Shown: positions 36,538-37,202 of the stretch, one piece after another
Layout: the number at the start of each line of letters is the position of its first letter
How positions within the stretch are numbered: position 1 is the first letter of the stretch
DNA from: Nonomuraea lactucae
GTDB taxonomy: Bacteria > Actinomycetota > Actinomycetes > Streptosporangiales > Streptosporangiaceae
NCBI RefSeq assembly: GCF_003313395.1
Contig: NZ_QNFZ01001066.1
Location: forward strand, 1 to 39,170
Direction of reading: 5' to 3'
Length of the DNA: 39,170 nt
Notes under the pieces: generated by a model
Told to the model about the DNA's origin: nothing
The model's input: the letters and a program-made list of their open reading frames with translations, nothing else
The model's database searches: none
Position numbers and translations under genes: made by a program

Positions 36538-36738
36538 ATGATCGTCATCAACGCTACTTGGCAGCGCGTCGTTCTCGGCGGACTTCTCGTACTTCCGCTG
36601 GCCTTGATCATCACAGTGATGATCCCGGCCCTCGTTGTCTTGCCGTTCTTCTCAGCAGGACGCGAGTTCCTTCTCAAGCTCATCGATAAGTTCATTGCCT
36701 GGGCGCGAATCATCGTGATCAAGGCAGATGCGAAGTGA
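36538..36738 (+). CDS. Small membrane protein, 66 aa
   Basis: ATG 36538 with AGGGG upstream; the longer frame from 36436 has no start signal. Two hydrophobic segments (VVLGGLLVLPLALIITVMIP and VVLPFFSAG) are followed by an amphipathic helix (EFLLKLIDKFIAWARIIVIK). The stop lies about ten bases from the anticodon end of the permuted tRNA, on the opposite strand. Function unknown. Confidence 0.6.
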   Translation: MIVINATWQRVVLGGLLVLPLALIITVMIPALVVLPFFSAGREFLLKLIDKFIAWARIIVIKADAK

Positions 36739-36747
36739 TCGGACCAA

Positions 36748-36822
36748 GTCATGGGGGCGTGCTGCCGTTACACCAACCCGCCTTCAGGCGGGGCCGGGAC
36801 TCGAACCCGAACTACCCCCTCG
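36748..36822 (-). tRNA. Circularly permuted tRNA-like gene, GAC-type anticodon
   Basis: On the minus strand a tRNA 3' half comes first and the 5' half second. 3' half (36822 down to 36786): CGA, anticodon-stem GGGGG, variable TAGT, T-stem TCGGG, loop TTCGAGT, stem CCCGG, acceptor CCCCGCC, then T. After GAA comes the 5' half (36782 down to 36748): acceptor GGCGGGT, TG, D-stem GTGT, loop AACGGCA, stem GCAC, G, anticodon-stem CCCCC, then ATGAC. Acceptor pairs 6 of 7, D-stem 4 of 4, anticodon-stem 5 of 5, T-stem 5 of 5. Joining the ends gives the loop ATGACGA, anticodon GAC (Val codon GUC). Processing in a bacterium is unexplained; it may be inactive. Confidence 0.65.
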
Positions 36823-36895
36823 TGCGGCTCCCAGGGATCGAACCTGGAGCTTCCGGTGTGTAAGACCGACACTCTTCCAATTGAGCTAGAGCCGC
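36823..36895 (-). tRNA. tRNA-Val(TAC)
   Basis: Complete cloverleaf: acceptor GCGGCTC / GAGCCGC (7 of 7), D-arm GCTC...GAGT, anticodon stem TCGGT / ACCGG with loop CTTACAC, T-arm CAGG-TTCGATC-CCTG type, discriminator A. No CCA is encoded. It directly abuts the permuted tRNA and is five bases from the next one. Confidence 0.92.
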
Positions 36896-37127: not shown

Positions 37128-37202
37128 TTGGACGCCTGGGACTCGAACCCACACCATGACCGGCTTCACAATCCGGCGCTCTACCGCTGAGCTACGGTCG
37201 CC
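37128..37202 (-). tRNA. tRNA-His(GTG)-like with broken acceptor stem
   Basis: The D-arm (GCTC...GAGC), loop TTGTGAA (anticodon GTG) and T-loop TTCGAGT are good. The 5' acceptor GGCGACCG cannot pair with the 3' strand GCGTCCA (only about three isolated pairs), and the T-stem has a mismatch at its base. The 3' end (GGCGTCC) equals that of the neighbouring tRNA-Phe, suggesting replacement by recombination and loss of function. Confidence 0.7.

Follow-up and report, generated by a model that had tools for sequence, protein, structure and literature searches.

Directly behind a tRNA-Val gene in phage DNA lies a short sequence that holds the parts of a tRNA in the wrong order, which raises the question of whether it is a tRNA gene whose product is rejoined, a remnant of recombination or an RNA of another kind. 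The window (the whole stretch of DNA that was analysed, 39,170 bases) is contig C772, part of an assembly of 8.67 Mb, and it carries phage genes for a terminase, a portal, a major head and a tape measure protein; one viral contig contains the same stretch with the same tRNA calls. Five tRNAs (Val, Leu, Phe, Met, Asn) are called by ARAGORN, all on the minus strand. A sixth, at 37131-37201 of the same strand, is missed by ARAGORN and matched by Rfam with 31.4 bits, its anticodon being GTG (His) by eye.

The earlier note, made from the letters alone, had described a 3′ half, a TGAA loop and a 5′ half, in that order, and this description was confirmed on the minus strand from 36822 to 36749. The whole permuted tRNA-like element (36749..36822, 74 nt including flanks of 3 and 4 nt) opens with CGA (36820..36822, 3 nt), placed between the tRNA-Val discriminator and the stem, followed by GGGGG (36815..36819), the 3′ strand of the anticodon stem, and by TAGT, which leads to the T-arm TCGGG-TTCGAGT-CCCGG (36794..36810; 5/5 pairs, one U-G). 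The acceptor hairpin CCCCGCC-TGAA-GGCGGGT (36776..36793; 6/7 pairs) comes next, with its 3′ strand at 36793-36787, the TGAA loop at 36786-36783 and its 5′ strand at 36782-36776. After TG follow the D-arm GTGT-AACGGCA-GCAC (36759..36773; 4/4 pairs, one U-G), a single G, the anticodon-stem 5′ strand CCCCC (36753..36757; 5/5 pairs with GGGGG) and finally ATGA (36749..36752, 4 nt), so that the fused loop would read ATGA|CGA. The pairing counts of all four stems and the loop given previously were thereby reproduced from the sequence. As transcribed, the element is predicted to form a tRNA four-way junction in which the acceptor end is closed and the anticodon end is open.

The upstream gene is tRNA-Val(tac) (36823..36895, minus strand; ARAGORN and Rfam) and, because its discriminator is position 36823, the element is flush behind it. 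On the other side, an opposite-strand open reading frame ends at 36738, 10 bp from the element. Among tRNAs without a close second T-arm, CGA directly follows 106 of 3,075. The fold score was reached by none of 100 and none of 200 dinucleotide shuffles of the downstream part. Folding energy was dropped as uninformative, since it is unremarkable (z −0.69; 41/200 shuffles at least as stable). The proposed ARAGORN check gave a split answer: the element is not called in its permuted place, and its rejoined order is accepted, as Val/Gly with an 8-nt loop and as Val(gac) with a 7-nt loop. A covariance model, R1, which has the window among its 19 build sequences, gives the element 65.2 bits, the next best score in the window being 41 bits.

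Further elements were sought by the signature of two T-arms 24-38 nt apart behind a tRNA. Eight of 373 such pairs, near contig ends, were dropped, and the remaining 365, among the matches listed, were tested with 100 shuffles each. In this sample, where spacings of 37-38 are oversampled, a G53-G53 spacing of 37-40 reached p≤0.02 in 47/176 pairs, against 2/159 for a spacing of 41-48. A search of IMG/VR aimed at the CGA subtype returned 44 contigs (complete listing) with 38 distinct places, the permuted fold being significant (p≤0.05) in 33 of the 38, of which 24 lay at the floor of 1/201. Tandem tRNAs were treated as false positives, and 145 raw matches fell to 31 once overlaps with ARAGORN tRNAs had been removed. 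Of the 51 significant places among the matches listed, 22 have a 5′ spacer of 3 nt and 9 have one of 4 nt when stems are extended without limit; stopping the extension at a 3-nt spacer favours that length (25/51), and as first scored 15 places have 3 nt and 15 have 4 nt. Nineteen places have a tRNA within 12 nt, and 7 of these show a 3′ spacer of 4 nt. Four of the 51 places are in genome_contigs (L291, L309, L351 and L367); of these, L309 (Actinomadura oligospora), whose contig is as long as the viral contig L400, is the sole one lying flush at a spacer of 3-4 nt. The pattern GGGGG...GCCCCC found no match in genome_contigs.

When 19 elements are aligned with MAFFT, the paired share of cells is 94.7%, a value biased upward because the sequences were picked for good fold, and 12 of 16 pairs have changed on both sides. 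The covariation score of these elements is 0.696, against 0.202 for shuffles and at most 0.152 for slid partners. Judged from the alignments, the stems covary across unrelated phages, and the element is real, conserved and a member of a class. The compensatory changes that the earlier note had proposed to look for were found in related elements, and since pairing is retained with them, the decay of stem complementarity that it had named as part of a refutation did not occur. Some viral contigs hold more complex arrangements. Permuted elements at L051 (2068-2137), L058 (8887-8956) and L071 (782-852), in tRNA-rich viral contigs, have acceptor hairpins that differ by paired changes. In a 527 kb phage contig (L050, 2338-2660, minus strand) several permuted elements lie in a tRNA array, one adjoining the 5′ end of a tRNA-Cys and two apparently fused. 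At L006 (5650-6250, minus strand), several tRNA-like genes have seeming insertions of 40-60 nt in the anticodon region with one common motif, and ARAGORN calls just two tRNAs, elsewhere in the locus.

Copies in named phages bear on whether such a structure could have survived by happenstance. With a query of 87 bases, blastn returned 29 phage records, all listed as Microbacterium and some of them duplicates, each matching the query colinearly at a single place, with a coverage of 80% or more and 72-75% identity. Eight of these records were fetched for inspection, including Abigail, Slay, Eula, QMacho and Lynlen. The copy in Abigail takes up the whole space between tRNA-Asn and tRNA-Gln, flush; the acceptor hairpins of the window and Abigail differ, and CGAGGGGGTAGT and GCCCCCATGA are identical. 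The Microbacterium phages have ATGA or GTGA (GTGA instead of ATGA in Lynlen) just ahead of the next tRNA. One element was found in the Mycobacterium phage MalagasyRose, and in cluster M phages the element stands behind tRNA-Asn, the copies of MrMagoo, Aziz, Rey and Reindeer differing by paired changes. It carries no annotation in any of the fetched stretches (the eight Microbacterium phages, MalagasyRose, Rey and Reindeer). In PegLeg (L476, 500-571), a second annotated tRNA-Asn is uncalled by ARAGORN, and no permuted element is present there. A relic of tandem-tRNA recombination whose pairing merely persisted would agree with the sporadic occurrence of the element, of which none was found in PegLeg, SirSheldon or LilhomieP, with the two acceptor mismatches of the Microbacterium copies and with the loss of one stem C in QMacho. 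However, covariation across unrelated phages and the fixed spacing speak against it, as does the persistence of the element in Slay and Eula, which lack annotated genes for tRNA-Gln and tRNA-Lys. This origin is rated very improbable.

The same two phages bear on a role in cis, where the fold would act inside the tRNA precursor, spacing the neighbouring cuts or guiding them, and the excised piece would have no further role. This explanation would suit the element's place directly after tRNAs, among which at least 14 named isotypes are represented, and the frequent presence of another tRNA 4 nt on. However, most tRNAs in the same loci lack an element (3,075 without a close second T-arm and 166 with one, in loci chosen for such pairs), no tRNA follows in the window, and Slay and Eula keep the element without an annotated tRNA behind it. 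A purely local function is therefore considered improbable.

A more elaborate alternative is a true circularly permuted tRNA. Its ends, CGA and AUGA, would arise as the flanking tRNAs are processed, with no need of a splicing endonuclease, a host or phage ligase would circularise the RNA through a 7-nt loop, and a cut at UGAA would open it into a tRNA, here Val(GAC). The 3-nt and 4-nt spacers described above add up to such a loop, and ARAGORN accepts 41 of 47 elements after joining. This set was kept only with a spacer of 3 or 4 nt, under the same 3-nt floor on stem extension, and some of its rows are related phages; it still contains two candidates with 57-nt loops, L474 at 17592, which overlaps the end of an annotated tmRNA, and L482 at 2622, both probably spurious. 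However, 40/47 elements have a purine at what would be position 32, against 73 of 3,026 ordinary linear tRNAs (phage and bacterial, from 400 loci, duplicates included), and U33 occurs in 29/47, against 2,870 of the same 3,026. In the window copy, A32 and U33 are found, and the stem is a canonical one of 5 bp. Within the CGA subtype, R32 stands opposite A38 in 28/28 and Y33 opposite G37 in 26/28, a facing that would look more like a continued helix than a U-turn loop. Stems of at least 6 pairs occur in 21/47 elements, and the acceptor loops range from 3 to 57 nt, among them GAAA twice and TTCG once. Since positions 32 and 33 are unlike those of ordinary tRNAs, decoding as a rejoined tRNA appears disfavoured for the class.

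The distribution of ligases was also considered. RtcB was found in 10 of 32 element records of at least 60 kb and in 2 of 29 controls (p 0.024), a difference that drops to 7/29 against 2/29 (p 0.14) when four cluster M phages are counted once. RNA_ligase matched 4/32 and 6/29, and any ligase 14/32 and 8/29 (p 0.29). The 32 records leave out those below 60 kb as well as L180 and L183, which are without a clear element (L183 had RNA_ligase), whereas one record of 41 kb is missing from the controls, whose screening for elements was not strict. A ligase association is hence weak once related phages are counted once. The genome of the window encodes RtcB and has a weak RNA_ligase match, and neither ligase family was found in Abigail or MalagasyRose. 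The filling of a missing isotype was rejected for Rey, in which tRNAs of 20 isotypes are already annotated. Many CGA-type copies rejoin to NAC (Val), an identity not counted as evidence because C at position 36 is the base most often found after the discriminator in these tRNAs anyway. In the phage and bacterial tRNAs fetched, the commonest trinucleotides after the discriminator all begin with C, including those other than CCA (CAA, CTA, CTT, CTG and CGA). Overall, a true permuted tRNA is judged unlikely. A widespread phage class of them, matured with no splicing endonuclease, released by 3′-end processing and RNase P and closed by a ligase at a 7-nt loop, is regarded as quite unlikely; the circular product would either be cut open to decode or stay a circle that distracts anticodon nucleases and exonucleases. 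To our knowledge, no permuted tRNA is known in bacteria so far, and a ligated product would be the first.

The permuted order directs attention to YrlA, a Y RNA whose basal stem tethers Rsr (Ro) according to passages of PMC8394870. The Rfam model of YrlA (RF02553) scores 17.3 bits (E 0.3) at the window element, against a gathering score of 69; the 5′ flank there is the tRNA-Val acceptor, the YrlA alignment is mismatched in the outer helix, and no motif of the ACTTC type (Ro stem) was seen by eye. In the Streptomyces phage Quantum, a weak blastn match (E 3) lies beside a Ro-like gene, and YrlA reaches 43 bits, also below 69. No Ro (TROVE) gene was matched in the 8.67 Mb assembly of the window, and none was found in Abigail. 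According to passages of PMC7824862, TROVE proteins and RNA ligases of both classes occur in jumbo phages. Across the records compared, TROVE was present in 16/16 of the Y-RNA type and in 2/38 flush records (L397, 1 of 22; L487, 1 of 14; neither the genome of the window nor Abigail), an absence that weighs less than a presence because viral records can be fragments. Twelve of the 16 were assigned by a script for the ACTTC-type motif (12/12 with TROVE) and L033, L055 and L130 by eye, whereas L131, also counted as Y-RNA type, was picked beside an annotated Ro gene and is no independent test. Left out of the count were L118 (Y-RNA type, TROVE present), L050 (mixed, TROVE absent) and the weaker candidates L177, L388, L398, L424, L462, L471 and L494. 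The two kinds are not wholly exclusive, since L419 combines a weak flush candidate with Ro and a Y RNA.

All sequences behind model R1 are flush elements, and the model picks up Y RNAs too. Its tally of 299 of the 342 genomes of the window's family is not an element count, because tandem tRNAs score with it as well, in the window as high as 41 bits. Thirty loci were fetched from these genomes, and in 15 a permuted fold lies clear of every tRNA call; the 15 include the window, one more flush element (L507) and six with an ACTTC-type Ro stem. Two loci of the same family, L529 and L530, hold two permuted modules each, with different outer stems that are not of the ACTTC type. When the T- and D-arm sequences were compared, the nearest to the window was the permuted element of L055 (score 32), against 27 for the best of 2,885 linear tRNAs, a small gap obtained with approximate slices; one Ro-type Y RNA also scores 27, level with the best tRNA.

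Taken together, the permuted order, the fold, its conservation and covariation, the flush position and the absence of a Ro gene from most carriers point to a free tRNA mimic, similar to YrlA and working without Ro, that would be released by the processing of neighbouring tRNAs, a reading to which we assign a probability of roughly 0.6. The element would be transcribed together with the tRNAs; maturation of the tRNA-Val 3′ end would free its 5′ end, and its own 3′ end would be freed when RNase P cuts a tRNA that follows or, in the window, by trimming. The linear form CGAGGGGG...CCCCCAUGA, given for Abigail, is the product that would fit this mimic. The stable RNA could then engage, as a decoy or a tether, proteins that read the tRNA elbow, such as modification enzymes, PNPase or host tRNA nucleases. 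The earlier note had weighed an unknown maturation route against a recombination relic; its permuted, paired parts stood, the element is not a one-off, and a closed tRNA mimic like the YrlA effector module, which it had omitted, suits the class better than either. If a Ro-free mimic is indeed made, phages have split the tRNA-mimic half of a Y RNA from its protein partner, and its production in step with phage tRNAs may matter in the conflict around defences that cut tRNAs. In the titles, abstracts and passages searched, which cover few subscription papers, neither permuted tRNAs nor Ro-free Y-RNA modules were found described in phages.

Three known systems invite comparison. The permuted, two-piece tmRNA is a bacterial tRNA-like RNA in permuted order, which it has in common with the element; however, no tmRNA appears among the ARAGORN calls or Rfam matches in the window, and no tag domain was seen. 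In algae and one archaeon, circularly permuted tRNA genes (Soma 2014; passages in PMC3978253) likewise place the 3′ half before the 5′ half with a split in the anticodon loop. Their intervening sequences span 1 to 74 bp, a range with which the short loops of the phage elements are therefore compatible, and in the window element, too, the 3′ half comes first and the two halves, once joined, take up a tRNA fold. However, those genes, which carry a BHB motif, have an ordinary tRNA sequence, whereas the phage class has its frequent purine 32 and its reduced U33. The closest likeness is with the tRNA-like effector module of YrlA, which in the Rfam alignments and in passages of PMC8394870 shares the order of the parts, the capped acceptor and the tRNA-like T and D arms; the same passages report that this domain (D, T and acceptor arms) is modified by DusA and TruB and binds PNPase. 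Common descent with YrlA is not proved, because the Rfam scores are low even in Quantum. As far as its sequence can tell, the phage element has the build of the tRNA-mimic half of YrlA, yet by these tests it is no YrlA, being without the Ro-binding basal stem and lying flush behind tRNAs.
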